The notes under the pieces are model-generated. The model did not search any database. It was not told where the DNA came from and worked only from the letters and a program-made list of their open reading frames with translations. A stretch of 64,000 bases of DNA from positions 111,529-175,528 of the forward strand of contig CAMYOL010000007.1 of the NCBI GenBank assembly GCA_947260005.1, in the 5' to 3' direction. This document shows positions 33,172 through 63,406 of this stretch, piece by piece (position 1 is the first letter of the stretch; every line of letters begins with the position of its first letter). The DNA comes from an uncultured Ectothiorhodospiraceae bacterium (GTDB lineage: Bacteria > Pseudomonadota > Gammaproteobacteria > UBA6429 > Thiohalophilaceae). The position numbers and the translations under genes are program-made.

Positions 33172-33531
33172 AGTGAAAGTCGGCCGATAAGCCGGGTTCT
33201 GTCGTGGACAACCATTCATCTAGGCCATTCGTCACCAAATGGCTCAAGCAGCCTACCCGGGTGCAGCATGGGCCATGCTATAACACCCCTATTTGGCCTT
33301 GCTCCGAGTGGGGTTTTCCCTGCCACTGATGTTACCATCAGCGCGGTGCGCTCTTACCGCACCATTTCACCCTTACCAAGCTTTGAATTCACAAAGCCAG
33401 GCGGTATATTTTCTGCGGCACTTTCCATCGGCTCTCGCCGCCCAGGCGTTACCTGGCACTCTGCCCTAGTGGAGCCCGGACTTTCCTCTAGAAATTTTCA
33501 TTGCTAGCGATTGCCTGGCCGACTTTCACTG
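33172..33531 (-). ncRNA. rnpB: RNase P RNA (M1 RNA)
   Basis: Catalytic RNA of RNase P, which trims tRNA 5' ends. On the - strand the 5' end GTGAAAGTCGGCCAGGCAATCGC pairs with the 3' end CCGGCTTATCGGCCGACTTTCAC to form helix P1. Conserved blocks are present: GAGGAAAGTCCGGGCTCC, GGGTGCCAGGTAACGCCTGG-like P3/P4 region, GGTAAGGGTGAAA, GTGCGGTAAGAGCGCACCG, GGAGCAAGGCCAAATAGGGG, GGTAGGCTGCTTGAGCC, and GACAGAACCCGGCTTATCGG. It is bacterial type A. A TAAAAT -10-like box lies just upstream, inside the short gap after rsmI. Confidence 0.96.
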
Positions 33532-54059: not shown

Positions 54060-54284
54060 AATAACCACTGTTAAATTAGCTGACAATATTGCCCAGAATA
54101 TCTACAGAAAATATTGAATATTTTACACATTAATAATCGCGGATTTCTCATAATGCAGTTAACTTATTGATATTACTTTAGATACTTATTATTCATTGGA
54201 TTGGCATGAATGCTGCTCATCTTTGTTTGAAGTCAACCCGTCGCAATGACGGTCAAATGGAAAATAAAACAGGGAGAAGACATC

Positions 54285-55856
54285 ATGCACAACATCAAGC
54301 GTATTTTCCTATACGTGGCTACACCTATTATTTTATTAGCTGTAATAACGGGACAGGCACATGCAGATCCGATACTTGAGTGGGCTTGGACATCCAGTTC
54401 TGTACAACCGAATGCCCTGAATGTTATGGGAACTCCTTCAGTGATTGATTTAAATAAGGACGGTACTCCAGATGTAGTATTCACTTCTACTGCATCCACA
54501 GGAGGGGGATTGGTTGAAATCGGTTATTTACGAGCCCTGAATGGTAATAACGGCACTGAGATGTTCACGGTAAATGATCCTGCCTACCAGGTGAATACGG
54601 CCTCTTCCATCGCGACAGGTGATATCGACAATGATGGCTTTGCTGAAATCATTGCTTGTGATAGCAGCGGCAGACGACTCATTGCCTTTGAACACGACGG
54701 TACATTTAAGTGGCGAAGTGTTTTCCTGGAAACGATTTACTGGGGCGCGCCTTCAATTGCCGACCTCGACAACGATGGCAATCCGGAAATCATTGTCGGT
54801 CGCCAGGTGCTGAACAATAATGGGGCCTTAGTGTGGACGGGTAGCGGTGGTCGTGGAACCCAAGGAAGCGTAGGTCCTTTATCGCTGGTTGCAGATATTG
54901 ATCTGGATGGCAGCCCAGAAGTCATCGCCGGCAACACGGCCTATGATGCCGCAGGAAACATCGAGTGGCAGGTTGCTCTGCCGGATGGCAGTAGCGCAGT
55001 GGGTAATTTCGACGCTGATAATCTTGCTGAAATCGTGCTGGTTAGTAATGGTAGAGTTTGGCTGCTCGAACACGATGGCACCACCAGGTGGGGCCCGGTG
55101 TTTATTCCTGGTGGTGGTGCCGGTGGGCCACCTACTGTTGCTGATTATGATAATGATGGTGAGCCGGAAATCGGTGTTGCCGGCGCACGTCGTTACGCCG
55201 TTTTTGAAACGGATGGCAGTCTGAAATGGGCAGCAGTGACACAAGACGTCAGCTCAAATCGAACTGGCTCATCCGTATTTGACTTTGAAGATGATGGTGT
55301 CGCCGAGGTGGTTTACAGCGACGAGTTAACGTTATGGGTCTATCGCGGTACCGATGGCGCGGTTGTTTTTTCAACTCCGTTGAGCTCATGCACCTGGCAC
55401 GAATATCCACTGGTTGCCGACGTAGATGGTGATAATCGTGCAGAATTACTCGCCGTGGCCAACAATAATTGCGGATATGGTCCTCACCGAGGTGTGTATG
55501 TTTATGGTGATGCCGACGATGAATGGGTGCTCACGCGCCAGATCTGGAATCAACATACCTATCACATCACCAACGTCAATCCGGATGGCACCATTCCGAT
55601 GTTAGAAAGAGATAACTGGCTGGAGCCCGGGCTTAATAACTTCAGGTTGAACACATTCGGTCAATTCGAAGGTCCGCCGTGTGATATCGATGCCAACAGA
55701 ATTGTAGATATCAACGATATTAGAGCCATTAGTGCGGCAAGAAATACGCCGGCTGTACCTGGCGATGCCCGGGATGTAGATGGTGATGGCTTTATAACAC
55801 TGAATGACGCACGTCAGTGTGTACTGCAATGCACCAACCCACGTTGTGCGCCGTAA
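54285..55856 (+). CDS. Secreted FG-GAP/VCBS repeat protein with C-terminal dockerin-like module
   Basis: A signal peptide (about 1-27, ending GQAHA) leads into a beta-propeller-like array of repeats. Calcium-type loops include DLNKDGTPD, DIDNDGFAE, DLDNDGNPE, DIDLDGSPE, DYDNDGEPE and DVDGDNRAE, about eight in all. The final 55 residues contain two dockerin-like loops, DIDANRIVDINDI and DVDGDGFITLNDA, flanked by cysteines. The ATG at 54285 has GGGAGAAG upstream; an in-frame ATG at 54246 would bury the signal. The next gene, 35 bases on, encodes a cohesin-like protein, suggesting that the two bind each other. No enzymatic domain is seen. Confidence 0.85.
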   Translation: MHNIKRIFLYVATPIILLAVITGQAHADPILEWAWTSSSVQPNALNVMGTPSVIDLNKDGTPDVVFTSTASTGGGLVEIGYLRALNGNNGTEMFTVNDPAYQVNTASSIATGDIDNDGFAEIIACDSSGRRLIAFEHDGTFKWRSVFLETIYWGAPSIADLDNDGNPEIIVGRQVLNNNGALVWTGSGGRGTQGSVGPLSLVADIDLDGSPEVIAGNTAYDAAGNIEWQVALPDGSSAVGNFDADNLAEIVLVSNGRVWLLEHDGTTRWGPVFIPGGGAGGPPTVADYDNDGEPEIGVAGARRYAVFETDGSLKWAAVTQDVSSNRTGSSVFDFEDDGVAEVVYSDELTLWVYRGTDGAVVFSTPLSSCTWHEYPLVADVDGDNRAELLAVANNNCGYGPHRGVYVYGDADDEWVLTRQIWNQHTYHITNVNPDGTIPMLERDNWLEPGLNNFRLNTFGQFEGPPCDIDANRIVDINDIRAISAARNTPAVPGDARDVDGDGFITLNDARQCVLQCTNPRCAP

Positions 55857-55891
55857 TCTGGAAAAAATATTTATCGTAAGAGGAAGAAATC

Positions 55892-56530
55892 ATGAAAAAG
55901 TTGTTATTCGCGATAGGGGGTTTACTGACACTTGGTCTGGTTAGTCAGGCAAACGCCGTCATGTTAAGTTTATTACCTGCTTCACAGACAGCATCATCGG
56001 GTGACACCGTGTCACTCGATCTTGTTATCGATGGTCTGGGAGATTTTTCTGCAAGTTCACTGGGCGACTTTGATATCAATATTAGCTATGACATGGCTAT
56101 TTTATCTTTTCAAAGTTATTCGCTGGGGTCTATGCTCGGTGACGAGTTATTGGGTGAAGCGATAGACTTTAGCCTGGGCGATATTGGCAGCGGCCAAGTG
56201 AACATAGCCGAGCTCAGCCTGCTGGATCCCGATCCATTTTCAGGCCCCTCTTTTATTGGCCCTTACCTGGATGATATCCAGCCAGGCAGTTTCTCGCTTG
56301 CAACACTCGAGTTTCATGTTGATTCTTTGGTACCAGGGAGTCTTACAACCGTAAGCATTGCTTCAGTTAATGTGCTCGGTGATGGGTTTGGGCTGCCGCT
56401 CATTCTTGACAGTACCAGCGATGCGGTAATCGGCTCACCAATAGCATCTGTACCCGAACCTTCCAGCCTGATACTTATGGGATTAGGTTTAGCAGGTATA
56501 GGTTTTATACGAAAAAGAAAAACAACGTAA
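55892..56530 (+). CDS. PEP-CTERM-anchored protein with cohesin-like domain
   Basis: A 212-residue exported protein. Signal peptide about 1-22 (ending QANA); a beta-sandwich domain (about 25-180) with ASSGDTVSLDLVIDGLGD, DINISYDMAILSFQSYSLG and SLATLEFHVDSL, a pattern typical of cohesin domains; then the sorting signal VPEPSSLILMGLGLAGIGF followed by RKRK. PEP-CTERM tails are processed by an exosortase, none of which is in this window. GAGGAAG ribosome binding site; cotranscription with the dockerin-like gene is likely. Cohesin assignment is by pattern and not certain. Confidence 0.82.
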   Translation: MKKLLFAIGGLLTLGLVSQANAVMLSLLPASQTASSGDTVSLDLVIDGLGDFSASSLGDFDINISYDMAILSFQSYSLGSMLGDELLGEAIDFSLGDIGSGQVNIAELSLLDPDPFSGPSFIGPYLDDIQPGSFSLATLEFHVDSLVPGSLTTVSIASVNVLGDGFGLPLILDSTSDAVIGSPIASVPEPSSLILMGLGLAGIGFIRKRKTT

Positions 56531-56704: not shown

Positions 56705-56935
56705 ATGGCAACAGAAATTAAAGACCTTGAGAAAAAAATTCTGGCCCTCTCTTCTGAAGAGCGAGCAAAGCTTGCCGAGCATATTATTTCCAGCCTAGAC
56801 GTCGCAACAGACATTAATGCAGAAGCGCAATGGTTGGACGAAGCCGAACGCCGTTATCAAGCCTATCGAGAAGGGAAGCTCGAATCAAAACCTGCAAATG
56901 AGGTATTTGAGTACGCTTTCAACAAGCTCAATTAA
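56705..56935 (+). CDS. Addiction module antitoxin-like protein
   Basis: A 76-residue protein of the putative addiction module component family. It has LSSEERAKLAEHIISSLD, then WLDEAERRYQAYREGK and a C-terminal tail with a FEYAF motif. Such proteins neutralise RelE/ParE-type toxins encoded directly downstream. The stop and the following start overlap as TAATG, so coupling is clear. Confidence 0.82.
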   Translation: MATEIKDLEKKILALSSEERAKLAEHIISSLDVATDINAEAQWLDEAERRYQAYREGKLESKPANEVFEYAFNKLN

Positions 56936-57227
56936 TGCCAGTCCATTTTCTTCCTCAGGCATCCGACGAGATGAGTGCCGCAGCACAGTTTTACGAAGAA
57001 AAATCCCAAAACCTTGGTAAACAATTCATTACAGAAATAAAAAACCTGACGACACTTATTGAAAAGATACCGACACAAGGCAAAAAAGTCAGGGCAGAAG
57101 TACGCAGGCGTTTTTGAAGGGTTTTCCTTATGCGTCACTCTACAGCATCGAACAACAACACATTGTAATTATTGCCGTCATGCATCTAAGACGAGATCCT
57201 GATTATTGGTCATCTCGAATTAAGTAA
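56935..57227 (+). pseudogene. RelE/ParE-family toxin with a frameshift
   Basis: The frame starts MPVHFLPQASDEMSAAAQFYEEKSQ and follows the ParE pattern to VRAEVRRRF, then meets a stop at 57116. In the next frame the family ending continues: GFPYASLYSIEQQHIVII, then AVMHLRRDPDYW and SSRIK to a stop at 57225-57227. A single extra T in the run of five Ts at 57111-57115 would restore the full toxin. The gene is therefore either inactivated by a one-base loss or affected by a sequencing error. A slippage site is possible but unproven. Confidence 0.82.
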
Positions 57228-57849: not shown

Positions 57850-58113
57850 CTAGCATAAAACCTTTACAAGTTGAAAATAAATTATTATGCCAATAATAAT
57901 AGCTAAAGAAACGACCAACCATCTAACGCGGTATTTCTTCCCTTTTTCATCTAATTTTGATCCATCAAATAACCATGACCATATAAGTAACCCTGATTCT
58001 CGCCTATCTTCAAAATGAGAATTTACCAATATATATAAATACACACTATACAGCGCGGCACTTGTAATAAAGATTAATATAAACCAACCAAGCAAATCAC
58101 AACTCGTTATCAT
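57850..58113 (-). CDS. Small two-helix membrane protein, putative RHS immunity protein (module 2)
   Basis: An 87-residue protein with two membrane segments (about 7-30 and 66-84) around a polar loop. The loop contains SWLFDGSKLDEKGKKYR. It is a paralogue of the protein at 58762: both are 87 residues, with the shared loop pattern W-FD-S-L-GKK-R and the same topology. It begins 9 bases after the orphan RHS tip, the position expected of an immunity gene. The function is inferred from position only. Confidence 0.7.
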   Translation of the reverse strand: MITSCDLLGWFILIFITSAALYSVYLYILVNSHFEDRRESGLLIWSWLFDGSKLDEKGKKYRVRWLVVSLAIIIGIIIYFQLVKVLC

Positions 58114-58122
58114 ACCTTTCTT

Positions 58123-58632
58123 TTACTCCTGTGGTGTAATATCCCATTCTGCTCCAGGTATCGAAATCATAGGTCCGATTAAAAAGCAAACATCACCATC
58201 ATCTTCAATTGTACCTCCAATTAACATTTTCCATGAGCCGCTAAATCCATCTATACCTAGCGGGTCAGGATCTTCTTTATTGGGGCATGGTTCTTTATCA
58301 TCTTCAGTCGGACATACTGATACGTATAAGCCAATACCTATACCAGTTGTTTGGGTCCACTTAGTGCCATCTGGTCCAAATGTCATTATTGTGCCACCAA
58401 GTTGTAAATTTAGTCTATCTTCAATACCTCTTGGTGATTTTTTCCTGCAAGGTCGACCACTACATTCTCTACCTCTTGCAGCTAATCCATTCGGATCAAT
58501 CCAATGCAGTGGATTACTGTCAACATAAGCATAGGTATTTAGACTAGGTGCTAATCCAATCGGATCAGAAGTAATATATCTCCCTATCGAAGGATCATAA
58601 TACCTAAAGTAGTTATAAAGTGGTGGTTCGTA
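58123..58632 (-). pseudogene. Orphan RHS C-terminal module (displaced tip)
   Basis: An open frame of about 168 codons without its own start; a TAA stands just before 58632. It begins inside the conserved RHS end, YNYFRYYDPSIGRYITSDPIG, and continues to WIDPNGL, the normal boundary of RHS tips. The following 119 residues are unlike those of the full RHS gene but share a cysteine/tryptophan pattern with them (CPTEDDKEPC, SWKML, DVCFLIG). The first internal Met is at 58386, with no supporting ribosome site. This is the classical arrangement of a displaced RHS tip awaiting recombination with the full gene. It is not expected to be expressed alone. Confidence 0.85.
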
Positions 58633-58761
58633 TTACTATGATTCCCACCATGGAAAAGACTAAATGAATTGATTGAGTTAACAGCACTGAGCTAACAATT
58701 ATCAGAGCTGATTAGTATTTTGCCTGGTGCGAATGATTCTCATTTGTCACCGCCCCTTTTT

Positions 58762-59025
58762 TTAATTCCCAAAAGCATACTGAAAAAGGTAAAACAACAT
58801 AATGCCGTATGGTATTGTAACAACTAAGATAAGCCTACGAGCCTTTTTTCCTTCTGGGTTGAGTACTGAGCTATCGAAAACCCATCGTGGAAAAATATGA
58901 TGTCCATATTTGTCCCCATCTTTAAAATTCATTGACATGTTTACATAGTGATAAAGGTAAAAAACCGCCCAGATCGCAAACATAATCCAAAAGATAAACT
59001 TCACACTATTTCTCCACTTCCACAC
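58762..59025 (-). CDS. Small two-helix membrane protein, putative RHS immunity protein (module 1)
   Basis: Predicted membrane protein with two hydrophobic segments and the loop WVFDSSVLNPEGKKAR, a paralogue of the protein at 57850. The frame opens at a GTG at 59025 inside the RHS gene (20-base overlap). A second GTG at 59004, directly after the RHS stop and preceded by GGAG with 7 bases spacing, is the better start and would give 80 residues. Immediate placement after the RHS tip supports an immunity role against the tip domain. Family not recognised. Confidence 0.75.
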   Translation of the reverse strand: MWKWRNSVKFIFWIMFAIWAVFYLYHYVNMSMNFKDGDKYGHHIFPRWVFDSSVLNPEGKKARRLILVVTIPYGIMLFYLFQYAFGN

Positions 59026-62000
59026 CGATAGGAAGACCTACCCCCGCACCAAATGAGTAACATTTAGTTCCATCAGGATTAAAGGTTACACCTATGAATC
59101 TCCAACCCGCAACAAATATAGGCGGAGATTCATTGTTGCCGTCTGTGTCATTACATGATTTATCTTCCGATGGAGGTTCACATCTCTCAAAAAAAATACC
59201 AGTCTGGGGTATAGGGGAAACAGTTTCAGATGTTTCCCCAGTATGAGCATCAATAGTATACGTATTAAAAATTAAGCTGAACCCGACAGCTACACTCCCG
59301 TTATCACCTACAGGGCCGTGTCCCATTTGACCATGTGGCCTTCCATGGTGAAGTCCGAGTATATCTATAAATCGTACCGGATTCCCGCCAACATACCCAT
59401 ACGTATTCAAACCACCCTCAAGCCCAATCGGATCACTGGTAATATACCGCCCAGTGGAGGGATCGTAGTACCGGAAGTAGTTATAATGTAACCCCGACTC
59501 AACATCATAATACTGCCCAGCAAACCGCTTGTTATAAACAAACGCCGACCCATCCCCATCCACATCGTCATTCGCGGCTGTAGCTCCAAACGGATCACTC
59601 TCCCATTGCCAAACCGCAGTTTGGTTTTGATCGGTGATCACTCTCGGGGTGCCAAGGTGGTCGGTATGCACGTAATACACATTGCCGTTTTGTATTACCG
59701 CCAGGGGTTGATCGCCGAGGTAGATGTGTTCGGCTTGCGCCGCTCCGGCAGGGTATTCCCCTAACAACTCACCACTCAGACCATAGGCAAAACCGGTCAC
59801 GGTGCCGCCGACGTCTTTCAGCGTGCGTTGGCCCAGCGCATTGTATTGATACGTCACGTCGGCATCGACGCCGATTAAACGGTTGTGTGTGTTATAGCGG
59901 TAACTATGTTGACCGTCGTTTAAGGTGTTGCCGTTGGCATCACGCTGGATGGCCACGCTGTTTTGGCTGGCTAACCGATTCGCGTTTGGTTCGTATGCGA
60001 ACGTGGTACTGACGGCATCACTGGTCAGGTCGAGGCGATTGCCATTTTTGTCATAGCCTAAACTCTGGGTGCCAAAACTACCGTCGGCGTCGGTTAACCG
60101 ATTTAACGCATCGTATTGATAGAGTGCGTGGTTGGCCGGGTTGAGTGTATCGTTGGTTGTTTCAAGATTACCATTGGCATCGTAGAGCGGGTATTGTCGT
60201 TGCATCACGCCCGTGATGTTTTGTGCGGTCAAGCGATAGGCTTGATCATAGCTCTGTGTTAGCTGGGCCCCATTGCCGTAGCTCATCGTTTTTATTGGGC
60301 CAAAGGGTTCGTAGCTGATGTTGGTGGCCAGTGTGATGGCGGTGCCGTCGATCACGCCATTGATCTGGGCGATGTTGCCGGCCAGATCATATTGATAAGT
60401 GATCACCGCACCAGATGGATAGGTTTGCTGACTCAGTCGACCCAGTGCATCGTAGCCATAGCTCATCCCTTGATGCGAGATAACGTCACCATAGGCATTG
60501 TATTGATAATCCACCTGGTTCGTGCCCTGGGTGATCGAACAGACACGACCCTGACCATGGGCGCAAGTGTCATACTGATAGCTTATGTCGTCGGCCGTGC
60601 CCGGGGCATCCAGTAAGGTCAGTCGGTTCAGCGCATCATAGACATAGCTAAAGGTTTGATCGTTAGCATCGGTACGCAGACGGAGGTTACCCGCGGCATC
60701 ATAGGACAGGATCTGGCTGCCGGTGTCGGCGGAGTCTTGTTGCAATAAGTTACCCAGATCATCATATTCATAGGTCGTTGTTCCATTGATGGGATCAATG
60801 ACATCGGTAAGATTATCTTGAACATCATAACTATATTCAGTCAACGCATCCGCGGTCGAGGGATCGGTGCCGCCCAGGTCCTGGGTCGAACGGAACACAC
60901 GTTTTAGATCATCGTATTGGTAATCCTGATGGGTCTGTTTGCCATCGAGCACGGTGGTCAGATCGCCAGTGGGATTATATACATAGGTGGCCGTTTCGTT
61001 GGCCTGGCTCGTACTCTGCAGTCGGTCGTACAGATCAAACACCTGGGTCAGCGAGCGGCGCAGTTGTTGCTGGGCATCTTCGATGGTTTCGCCGATCTTG
61101 TTGCCTTCGCTATCGAGTTCATAGTGCATCACGTTACCCAGGCCATCGGTGATGCTGCGCAGGCGACGGCCGTCGTCATAACCTAAGGTGATCACGATCG
61201 GGCTTACGGTGCCGGCGCCGAGGGTAATCGTCTCGACTTCGCCTGTCGGTAAATAGGTATAGGTCGTGGTGCGGGTCGTCAGGCCATCGCTTTGGCTGAG
61301 GGATTGCAGACGATCGTTGCCCGGGTAATAGGCGTAGCTCAATTGCAAACCATTACTGCGGGTTTCGCTTAAGACTTTTCCGGTCGCTGAGTATTGCAGG
61401 TTATCGCGCAGGATCAGACCGCTCGCGGTTTGTACCTGACGTAACCGTGCCCGGTTATTATTTTGATCGGGATCGTCCGGGTAATAGTTTAATAACACAC
61501 GATCATCGACATCGCTGCGTGGGCCGTCTACCACACTGAGTTGATTCAATGGGCCCGAGTATTGAAAACTGGTGGTGCGCGACACGGAAGTACAGCTCGG
61601 GGTAAAGCCGTCGATGCTGATTTGTGTGATGTTCGCAAAGTTATCGTAACCATAGGTCGTGGTTTTTACATTACCGGCACACACCGACGGTTCGGTTTTG
61701 CTGGCGACTTTGTCGTTAAAGCGCGCATCGTAGGTGTAACGGATGGTGCGCGCATTCGGTGTGCCCGCTGCACGGGTAATCGACGCCACGTTGTAATCAT
61801 TATAGGTGTACTCCGTCCGCACGCCATTGGCATCGGTTTTGGAGAACAGGCGTATTTGCTTATTGGTCCAGTCCACATACCGATTGTATTCTCGATAATC
61901 GTAAAGCGTGGCGGTGCCGTTCTCTTCAATCGACGTGACGCGTTTGATGTGATTGAGCACCGAAAAATTATAACGCGTTTGGCTGTTGCGCGAGTTCACC

Positions 62001-63406
62001 ACTTCGGTGTTGTCCGCATTAAAGGTTAAATCAATTCGATCGATGTCATTCGCGTGGGTCGATAAGATCGCCCGGCCTTGTGAATCGTAATCAAAGGTGG
62101 AATAGCGAATACCGCGCTCATCGGTTACGCCGGTTAAGGCGTTGGTATGGGTCGCATGCTCATAGTGATAAGTACGTGTGGTGTCATCGGGATTGATCAC
62201 CGAGGTCAGGCGATCGAGATCGTCGTAGACATAGGAGACGGAGTGGTCCGCCTGATTGTCGACACGTTGTAAAAGACGGCCGTCATCATCGTAGTGAAAC
62301 GTTAAGTACTGCCCAAGACGGTTTTCAACGCGACTCAATTTGCCGTTGGGTCCCTGGTAACTTAATGTGTAGACCTCAAACGCCGACTTCTCGAGGCGAG
62401 TTAATCTACCCTCGACGTCATAAAATTCTTTATCGCCATCGTCTTCAATCAATACCCAGCCGCCGACCCCATCGGGCTCAATATGAAAACCGGCACCGGT
62501 GATCGGCACATAATTTGGGGTCCGACTGTGTAACCTCAACGGTTCGACAAACGCGGAACCGCGCACCGCGAGGTTCGGTCGACCACCGTATAAGATGAGT
62601 GATCGTGCGAACGAGTGATACCAACGTGGGCCCAACGAGGATTGGCTCTCAACGTGGGTCGCGGATTGATAGGTGCGGCGCAGGCTTAATGATTGACCGA
62701 CGAAGTCGGTTTCAAATTCAATCTTATTCCCCGTATACACATCACAGGGATTCCCAGCGCAGATACCGGGATTCGAATCGAGGGGACCGTTGATGTAAGC
62801 CGTATGATCGTTGCTACACGTTTGAGTGGCTGAGCTATACGAGAAACCCTCGGGGCAGTCGAAACGGCGAAACGCGTTTACCGAGGCGGTATTATAGTTG
62901 ATGCGGGAAAATACACAGGCGCCTTCAACGAGACTGTAGCTATGGATATCAACTTGATGCCGGGTATATTCATTGGGGGGAGAAATACCACAGCCGAAGG
63001 TGTTTGTGCCTCCTGAGAGGGAGGGCTCGGTACGTGCGCCAGAGAAATGCAATTGACTGCGACAGGTGGCGTCACCGTTTAGAAAATCTTCTCCCGCCTG
63101 CAACGCCTCGGTTTCACTGCTGTAACAGTCGGTCGTACGCCATGGGTTGGCAAATTGCCATTGGCCACGCGTCGGAGAGATCTGAGGCGCCCGATATTCG
63201 TAGCGTATGCCCCGACTACGGTAGATACTGTCGACTTGTTGGTGCTGAGCGTATTGGGAACCAACGGCCCGTAATTCAGCCTCGGCCTCGGACTTCGTGT
63301 CAAAGATCCGGTCAGGAATAGTACTAACGGTAAAACCGGCAAATACAGTGGGTACGTTGATGATGAAGCCTATGAACAAGACTAATACCGTAATGATTCG
63401 ATGCAT
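59006..63406 (-). CDS. Sec-secreted RHS-repeat protein with variable C-terminal domain
   Basis: A 1466-residue RHS protein. A signal peptide (about 1-23, ending TVFA) directs it through Sec, unlike type VI-delivered RHS proteins that lack one. A DUF6531-like segment (near 215-290, CDVYTGNKIEFETDFVG) precedes many YD repeats such as YDDLGNL, YDAAGNL, YDALNRL. The core ends with YYVHTDHLGTPRVITD and YFRYYDPSTGRYITSDPIG, then FIDILGL; the usual boundary DPxGL is altered to DILGL. After it comes a variable tip of about 114 residues with GFSLIFNTYT, CEPPSEDKSC and GWRFIGVTF. GAGAGGG lies before the ATG. The core has richer G+C than the tip. Cell-surface or contact-dependent function is inferred. 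Confidence 0.92.
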   Translation of the reverse strand: MHRIITVLVLFIGFIINVPTVFAGFTVSTIPDRIFDTKSEAEAELRAVGSQYAQHQQVDSIYRSRGIRYEYRAPQISPTRGQWQFANPWRTTDCYSSETEALQAGEDFLNGDATCRSQLHFSGARTEPSLSGGTNTFGCGISPPNEYTRHQVDIHSYSLVEGACVFSRINYNTASVNAFRRFDCPEGFSYSSATQTCSNDHTAYINGPLDSNPGICAGNPCDVYTGNKIEFETDFVGQSLSLRRTYQSATHVESQSSLGPRWYHSFARSLILYGGRPNLAVRGSAFVEPLRLHSRTPNYVPITGAGFHIEPDGVGGWVLIEDDGDKEFYDVEGRLTRLEKSAFEVYTLSYQGPNGKLSRVENRLGQYLTFHYDDDGRLLQRVDNQADHSVSYVYDDLDRLTSVINPDDTTRTYHYEHATHTNALTGVTDERGIRYSTFDYDSQGRAILSTHANDIDRIDLTFNADNTEVVNSRNSQTRYNFSVLNHIKRVTSIEENGTATLYDYREYNRYVDWTNKQIRLFSKTDANGVRTEYTYNDYNVASITRAAGTPNARTIRYTYDARFNDKVASKTEPSVCAGNVKTTTYGYDNFANITQISIDGFTPSCTSVSRTTSFQYSGPLNQLSVVDGPRSDVDDRVLLNYYPDDPDQNNNRARLRQVQTASGLILRDNLQYSATGKVLSETRSNGLQLSYAYYPGNDRLQSLSQSDGLTTRTTTYTYLPTGEVETITLGAGTVSPIVITLGYDDGRRLRSITDGLGNVMHYELDSEGNKIGETIEDAQQQLRRSLTQVFDLYDRLQSTSQANETATYVYNPTGDLTTVLDGKQTHQDYQYDDLKRVFRSTQDLGGTDPSTADALTEYSYDVQDNLTDVIDPINGTTTYEYDDLGNLLQQDSADTGSQILSYDAAGNLRLRTDANDQTFSYVYDALNRLTLLDAPGTADDISYQYDTCAHGQGRVCSITQGTNQVDYQYNAYGDVISHQGMSYGYDALGRLSQQTYPSGAVITYQYDLAGNIAQINGVIDGTAITLATNISYEPFGPIKTMSYGNGAQLTQSYDQAYRLTAQNITGVMQRQYPLYDANGNLETTNDTLNPANHALYQYDALNRLTDADGSFGTQSLGYDKNGNRLDLTSDAVSTTFAYEPNANRLASQNSVAIQRDANGNTLNDGQHSYRYNTHNRLIGVDADVTYQYNALGQRTLKDVGGTVTGFAYGLSGELLGEYPAGAAQAEHIYLGDQPLAVIQNGNVYYVHTDHLGTPRVITDQNQTAVWQWESDPFGATAANDDVDGDGSAFVYNKRFAGQYYDVESGLHYNYFRYYDPSTGRYITSDPIGLEGGLNTYGYVGGNPVRFIDILGLHHGRPHGQMGHGPVGDNGSVAVGFSLIFNTYTIDAHTGETSETVSPIPQTGIFFERCEPPSEDKSCNDTDGNNESPPIFVAGWRFIGVTFNPDGTKCYSFGAGVGLPIGVEVEK

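Follow-up and report, generated by a model that had tools for sequence, protein, structure and literature searches.

What is the function of two short protein domains at the end of an Rhs locus, each followed by a small two-helix membrane protein and neither resembling a named toxin? The question is raised by a 64,000-nucleotide stretch of DNA (the window) from an uncultured Ectothiorhodospiraceae bacterium (contig CAMYOL010000007.1), in which an Rhs gene ending in one such domain (tip 1) is followed by a membrane protein gene and then by a displaced cassette holding a second pair. Profile searches indicate that tip and membrane protein form a rare effector/immunity-like family that recurs as a pair in other genomes, and comparison with related loci points indirectly to the cell envelope as the target of the tip. 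Two consecutive modules of tip and membrane protein had been proposed in an initial annotation of the window, and they are confirmed by the open reading frames and by a TIGR03696 match in both core ends. The features of the locus, in positions of the window, are as follows:

59006-63406, minus strand: Rhs/YD-repeat protein of 1466 aa, with predicted signal peptide, DUF6531, RHS repeats, Rhs core and tip 1 (open reading frame and family matches)
63338-63406, minus strand: predicted Sec signal peptide of ~23 residues (by sequence inspection only)
59351-59596, minus strand: Rhs-associated core end, residues 1271-1352 (TIGR03696, E 1.3e-23)
59009-59350, minus strand: tip 1, 114 aa, a predicted toxin domain with Cys 57, 66 and 97 (tip homology and profile matches)
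58762-59025, minus strand: membrane protein 1, a predicted two-helix immunity protein of 87 or 80 codons (homology and hydropathy)
58483-58632, minus strand: displaced Rhs core end of the orphan cassette, holding a 111-base imperfect repeat (TIGR03696, E 7.7e-17; DNA alignment)
58126-58482 (58123-58482 with the stop codon), minus strand: tip 2, 119 aa, of the same family as tip 1 (tip alignments)
57850-58113, minus strand: membrane protein 2, a predicted two-helix immunity protein of 87 aa (homology and hydropathy)

The N-terminus of the Rhs protein, as read from the sequence, is MHRIITVLVLFIGFIINVPTVFA|G. The protein matches the RHS repeats of PF05593 (E 3.2e-48), and tip 1 makes up its last 114 residues, after the core end at residue 1352. 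Membrane gene 1 overlaps or abuts the Rhs stop, according to its start codon. It is followed, after a gap of 129 bases, by the displaced Rhs end, which consists of 50 core residues and the 119-residue tip 2. This frame is open only from 58632(-) and is closed upstream by two stops, and membrane gene 2 begins nine bases past the stop of tip 2. The imperfect DNA repeat common to both core ends has an alignment score of 51, against a maximum of 18.5 in 200 shuffles; within the window, neither the two tips nor the two partner genes were alike in DNA above the level of shuffles. In the main module, the GC content is 0.52 for the core, 0.44 for tip 1 and 0.36 for its partner gene; the orphan cassette has values of 0.37 for the core end, 0.42 for tip 2 and 0.31 for the partner gene. 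The locus has the marks of an Rhs polymorphic toxin, namely repeats and core, a tip directly after the core, a matched downstream partner, tip and partner of lower GC than the core before them (as in the first module), and an orphan cassette with core-end homology. Its layout is, judging from sequence, the usual one for Rhs loci that carry an orphan cassette, and such cassettes are swapped via the core region. No third copy was found in the same genome, where the next match had an E of 0.3.

The members of the two modules are related to each other to very different degrees. Membrane proteins 1 and 2, each with two 19-residue hydrophobic peaks, had been called paralogues, and alignment bears this out (35% identity over 63 residues, BLASTP E 2e-8). 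Their supposedly equal length holds if membrane protein 1 starts at GTG 59025 (87 codons in both) and fails if it starts at GTG 59004 (80 codons). As the latter codon is preceded by a good ribosome-binding site (GGAG, seven bases upstream), the shorter form of membrane protein 1, with 80 residues, may be the real one. Divergence is much greater between the tips, which are 24% identical and had been described as unlike at first sight yet related. This view is upheld by a local score of z 6.2 and a global score of z 5.5, neither of which was reached in 2000 shuffles, and by the fact that each tip is the top match of the other in a ranking set of 64 tips, the 63 others being Rhs tips of 70-200 residues. 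BLASTP relates the tips only weakly, at E 7e-4 and 1e-3; the better segment (E 7e-4) is out of register, placing hairpin 2 of tip 1 on hairpin 1 of tip 2. On these alignment statistics, tips 1 and 2 are homologous.

Further evidence for a family came from 79 Rhs loci of named genomes, the best of 484 relatives, which were picked by core end alone and hence blind to tip and partner. They were searched separately with a tip profile built from the two window tips only (A2) and with a partner profile (A4) built from the window pair, the same-genus protein P0004 and the metagenome protein P0005. The tip profile matched three of the 79 loci at E <=0.0032, and the partner profile, at E <=1, matched only the same three:

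L176, Ectothiorhodospiraceae bacterium: tip before partner (tip profile E 2.9e-6, partner profile E 2.8e-6)
L185, recorded as an 'Aquificales' metagenome-assembled genome: tip before partner (tip profile E 1.5e-4, partner profile E 1.1e-8)
L207, Pseudomonas viridiflava: tip before partner (tip profile E 0.0032, partner profile E 0.055, marginal)

The chance of drawing identical sets of three from 79 independently is, by hand calculation, 1 in 79,079, and column-shuffled profiles (20 per kind) gave no match at E <=0.01. Since separate profiles meet at the same three loci, with tip before partner in each, the pair is, as far as profiles can tell, a real and rare effector/immunity-like family. 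The diverged tip/partner family that the initial annotation had suggested is thus found side by side in three further genomes, which brings the total, window included, to five pairs in four genomes. In L185 an intact tip follows the Rhs core end, and the partner starts two bases past the tip stop. The tip frame of L207 is the 3' part only (62 residues), with its stop overlapping the partner start, and L176 retains a 70-residue 3' part, which runs into the partner with one choice of start codon and stops 28 bases short of it with another. These two loci look like decayed orphan cassettes with an intact partner gene. An early tip profile had matched only the genome of the window among 40 family genomes and 370 relatives around the window, and had found no match outside the window in a set of Rhs loci that included 100 Rhs regions. 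Many predicted Rhs tips lack a named domain, and a pair seen in one genome has here become a defined family, linked in four. The L185 contig (JALWWX010000147.1) has an Rhs core end 66% identical to that of the window; most of the other 78 loci selected by core end are labelled Proteobacteria, and this contig is possibly misbinned.

Library searches agree with the earlier view that the tip is not a named toxin domain. Neither tip and neither membrane protein had a convincing match in Pfam, NCBIfam, PHROGs or PADLOC; the best library match of tip 2 was PHROG 14610, at chance level (E 0.029), and neither tip matched a known non-toxin domain. Weak matches to curated families, among them WLS-like_TM (E 0.019) and EI24 (E 0.03) for membrane protein 2 and TIGR00373 (E 0.0024) for P0005, lie far below the family cut-offs. 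Sequence searches of the PDB gave two chance-level matches with the first tip profile (E 0.35 and 0.41) and nothing otherwise. Among 5.8 billion proteins, a search with tip 1 at E 10 retrieved, besides tip 1 itself, a single Rhs protein (P0002), which was rejected as a homologue of the tip: the common part is core end and linker, and the tip differs. Orphan tip 2 had no match in the protein search, where a length rule excluded full-length Rhs proteins. A three-member membrane-protein profile that included P0004 found membrane protein 2, P0004 itself and P0005, the last 62% identical to membrane protein 2 and encoded on a 968-base metagenome contig. Nothing of use came from scans of viral contigs or from a first scan of genome contigs with the partner, and plasmid searches gave three chance-level matches only. 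In titles and the beginnings of abstracts, a scope outside which lay most subscription journals and all bioRxiv preprints, no such tip was described. The kind of system, an Rhs tip with an immunity protein, is already known, and the tip/partner family is one that matched nothing in the libraries searched.

Several weak partner matches (L012-L015 and L021-L027) were dropped before any count was made. Five of them (L013, L021, L022, L023 and L025) were inspected and had no comparable small two-helix gene, and the rest were judged from match tables alone. L021 matched an early partner profile at 3e-5 and the improved one not at all; a 48-residue frame in L014/L024 still matched the improved profile at 0.008.

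The partner family spans 76-96 residues, with 16-61% identity to membrane protein 2, and some of its members stand without a tip. The initial annotation had asked whether such small proteins occur widely without Rhs tips, and this is so only in part, in one genome of the same genus as the window (G002) and in two Pseudomonas genomes. With the improved partner profile, 233 genomes around the window yielded only the window's two proteins and that of G002, and 234 genomes around L176 only L176 itself. Among 398 genomes of Pseudomonas, the genus of L207, a partner match at E 0.001 was found in three, namely that of L207, G446 and G635. In G002, the partner-family gene is preceded by a PT-HINT fragment and a further small gene, and in G446 by a DUF7336 gene and a frame of 142 residues. 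In G635 no toxin gene was seen by eye within 1.5 kb. In all, five of the eight members of known context adjoin a tip, a figure biased by the three pairs that came from loci chosen for their Rhs core, and two of the three others lie in toxin/immunity-like arrays. Apart from G635, these gene neighbourhoods fit orphan immunity genes.

The initial annotation had taken the membrane location of the partner as a hint of a target in the envelope, and this part of it is supported indirectly by tips of related Rhs loci. The comparative set consisted of 132 of the listed places and the window's orphan, of which 131/133 gave a tip. The longest open reading frame starting -60 to +200 bases from the tip was taken as the partner, and a membrane segment was counted where the 19-residue Kyte-Doolittle mean was >=1.6, rules by which some assignments will be wrong. 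In a first set of 115 tips (without the window's two, tips of <60 residues and tips without a partner frame), a partner with at least two hydrophobic segments accompanied 25/63 tips with at least three cysteines and 6/52 other tips (Fisher p 7e-4). The same trend was seen in a second set (18/58 vs 3/28, p 0.06), which includes the L185 member and comprises 86 of 93 tips, those of <60 residues or without a partner frame being left out and 10 duplicates having been dropped earlier. At a Pfam E of 0.01, the 31 tips with multi-segment partners (window excluded) gave matches to Tlde1, YkuD, CHAP, prokaryotic phospholipase A2 and C97 peptidase, the Tlde1 and YkuD matches possibly being one tip. They also gave an ABC_tran_CTD match (1.5e-5), whose meaning is not clear, and weaker matches. 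At the same threshold, the matches of 60 tips with soluble partners included TreTu, Tox-REase-9, colicin D, colicin E5, HINT, DUF4951 and DUF6765. The trend for tips that contain cysteines to have a membrane partner may also be of use in predicting where unnamed Rhs tips are likely to act.

Two other groups of tips were noticed in the same loci. In L074, L087, L117, L181, L199, L212, L218 and L228, the Rhs tips are rich in cysteine and carry the motif H-D-x-[CT]-Y, which presumably resembles that of secreted phospholipase A2, and each has a partner with two or three hydrophobic segments. PF09056 was matched by one of the 31 tips with multi-segment partners. Glycine-rich, beta-looking tips whose partners have one or two segments are found in L082 (334-687), L088 and L125; those of L088 and L125 are mutually related (z 9.2) but not clearly related to the window tips (z up to 2.1).

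What the tip might do in the envelope was considered from its composition. The initial annotation had described a shared motif, of which D, C, G and P are kept in all five family tips, and its Trp, Thr and Glu are not. These four are the only invariant residues, and they form a core motif, D-[GD]-x-x-C-x3-G-x5-P, that is present in 5/5 tips. In the three full tips, 11 columns are identical, namely these four and seven more (P, G, G, C, P, F, G); His, Ser, Glu, Lys and Arg do not occur among the 11, and tip 2 is without any His. Because only D, C, G and P are invariant and tip 2 lacks His, an enzyme is unlikely; the conserved set, so far as composition can tell, speaks against the usual nucleases, phospholipases and peptidases. 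Cysteines are present in all five tips and would fit an oxidising compartment. No 19-residue segment with a hydropathy >1.5 was found in the five tips, the maximum being 0.80 in tip 1 and 1.14 in tip 2. AlphaFold2 (AF2) placed four long strands at matching positions in the models of both tips, at a mean predicted local distance difference test score (pLDDT) of 47.8 and 37.9, which makes the all-beta fold only a hint; the two runs shared one pair of input sequences and do not count as independent.

From this, it is proposed, with about an even chance of being correct, that the tip is a non-enzymatic antibacterial toxin acting from the periplasm on the inner membrane of rivals and that the membrane protein is its immunity protein, whatever the exact action on the membrane. 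The Rhs protein would be exported by Sec, and its tip would be delivered into the periplasm of a neighbour. There the tip may fold as a cysteine-bonded beta domain with two beta hairpins, as the low-confidence models suggest, and with putative disulfides between the conserved cysteines. It would then disturb the inner membrane, either permeabilising it or seizing a membrane protein, and the two-helix protein would block this action within the membrane. The second module would be a silent cassette that could replace tip 1 by recombination in the repeated core end, and membrane gene 2 would protect against siblings carrying tip 2. A more specific version, conceivable though doubtful, is that the tips represent a kind of membrane-permeabilising domain new to Rhs proteins, all-beta, disulfide-bonded and non-enzymatic, whose two short hairpins would assemble, from the periplasm, on or in the inner membrane and be stopped inside it by the two-helix protein. 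As part of the same doubtful version, such a domain would be the beta-type counterpart of the helical Tse5 and of the ionophores of contact-dependent inhibition (CDI).

A number of observations weigh against the proposed toxin and its all-beta version. Among the three further tips, those of L176 and L207 are remnants, the evidence from L207 by itself would be marginal, and partner-family members without a tip exist (G002, G446 and G635). Tips with soluble partners also match a glycine zipper (5e-4), PASTA (0.002) and an M15 peptidase (0.0035), and because of these envelope-type exceptions the split between the two kinds of partner is not clean. The association of beta propensity with a membrane partner depends on the cut (p 0.11, 0.004 and 0.09 for the top 15, 20 and 30), with p 0.011 in a rank test. 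The confidence of the AF2 models is low, the all-beta fold is weakly supported, and the model of tip 1 has two extra short strands. Moreover, strand-like hydrophobic alternation in the tips was not above that of shuffled tips (z 0.0 to 1.2), and there is thus no sign that beta hairpins insert into the membrane. Known ionophore tips are alpha-helical. Finally, the charge distribution, read by the positive-inside rule, favours a cytoplasmic loop in at least 3/4 partners, the reverse of the N-in/C-in hairpin of the CDI immunity protein CdiI.

Three other explanations have to be set beside the proposed membrane-acting toxin. The tip could jam an essential inner-membrane protein, for example a transporter, Sec or the division machinery, with the partner competing for it or guarding it. 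This would explain why a non-enzymatic, cysteine-containing tip without long hydrophobic segments has a membrane partner, and CDI ionophores are likewise described as requiring specific inner-membrane proteins (excerpts of PMC11630599); no target gene is linked, and such a blocker is rather unlikely. The tip could also be a small enzyme that attacks lipid or peptidoglycan in the periplasm, with the membrane protein blocking it or shielding its substrate, as is suggested by the phospholipase A2, CHAP, Tlde1 and YkuD matches of relatives' tips with multi-helix partners. Against it stand the lack of a conserved catalytic set, the absence of His from tip 2 and the lack of any family match for the tips, and it is judged quite unlikely.

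The remaining explanation, a very unlikely one, is that both modules serve at the cell surface or in adhesion and that the membrane protein is an export or anchoring factor. Rhs/teneurin-like proteins can act at the cell surface, and the toxicity of the tips is itself a prediction only. However, the partner family goes with the tip family, whereas other Rhs tips of relatives have other partners, and of the three tipless members, one follows a PT-HINT fragment and one a DUF7336 gene, which would be expected of orphan immunity genes and not of export factors. If the tip does act on the inner membrane, the pair would provide a test case for neutralisation by a two-helix protein.

Elsewhere in the window, an addiction module lies at 56705-57117(+), made up of an antitoxin of the Unstab_antitox family (PF09720, E 7e-14) and, after it, a 60-codon frame that matched nothing in Pfam. 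This frame stops early and similar coding potential seems, by eye, to run on in another frame, so that the module looks decayed. At 54246-56530(+), an FG-GAP repeat protein whose C-terminus looks dockerin-like by eye adjoins a PEP-CTERM protein that matches cohesin weakly (E 0.0034, below the cut-off), and the two may be a cohesin/dockerin-like pair. A bacterial class A RNase P RNA (RF00010) is found at 33172-33526(-).

Among known and newly seen systems, the tips may be compared with an unnamed family of glycine-rich Rhs tips (fam2), which resembles them in containing Gly and Cys and in having mostly hydrophobic partners but has no detectable homology to the window tips (hhalign probability 0.2%). 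Its members are L107 (289-762), L120 (2200-2634, minus strand), L136 (2948-3373), L172, L176 (3322-3771), L210 and L234, and L236 is an eighth by profile, in which no partner open reading frame was found. They have 142-158 aa and are rich in glycine, with a W near the start, an [ST]-x-C-V-x-G-like motif and a C-terminal Cys. Their partners have one to four hydrophobic segments in six cases, and that of L234 is lipoprotein-like by eye. NCBIfam held no match for L107, L120 or L136, and Pfam none for L107 or L120.

Two-helix Imm-CdiI proteins and helical W-TIP tips have been described (Zhang et al. 2012, excerpts of PMC3482391). The Tox-WTIP domain resembles what is proposed for the tips of the window: it is found at the end of RHS and other polymorphic toxins, is short and non-enzymatic, and has a predicted membrane action (excerpts of PMC3482391). 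It differs in its W-TIP motif (W-x-[ST]-I-P) and its long hydrophobic segments, both of which are absent from 5/5 family tips, two of these being remnants. CDI ionophores offer a second parallel, as their CdiI immunity proteins are hydrophobic two-helix proteins of 72-100 residues with ~30% identity within a group (excerpts of PMC11630599); an N-in/C-in hairpin is reported for CdiI. The partners in the window match CdiI in size and hydropathy only, and their charge pattern suggests the opposite orientation. Further, the CdiA-CT ionophores are predicted five-helix bundles, whereas the tips here are predicted to be beta, at low confidence (pLDDT 48 and 38).

Another close parallel is Tse5 of Pseudomonas aeruginosa, a pore-former with an Rhs core and a tip without predicted enzyme activity, whose small immunity protein, Tsi5, has two predicted transmembrane regions (excerpts of PMC9637101). 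The likeness of the partners to Tsi5 is one of size and hydropathy. Tse5 is an effector of the type VI secretion system; its N-terminus is PAAR-like, and membrane helices are predicted in its tip. The Rhs protein of the window has instead a predicted signal peptide and a short cysteine-containing tip without a long hydrophobic segment, and no PAAR family was found in it in Pfam at E 1, a search of sequence families only, beyond whose scope a degenerate PAAR-like fold lies. If the tip acts on the inner membrane, a small, cysteine-containing and probably non-helical design would be added to the helical ionophores.

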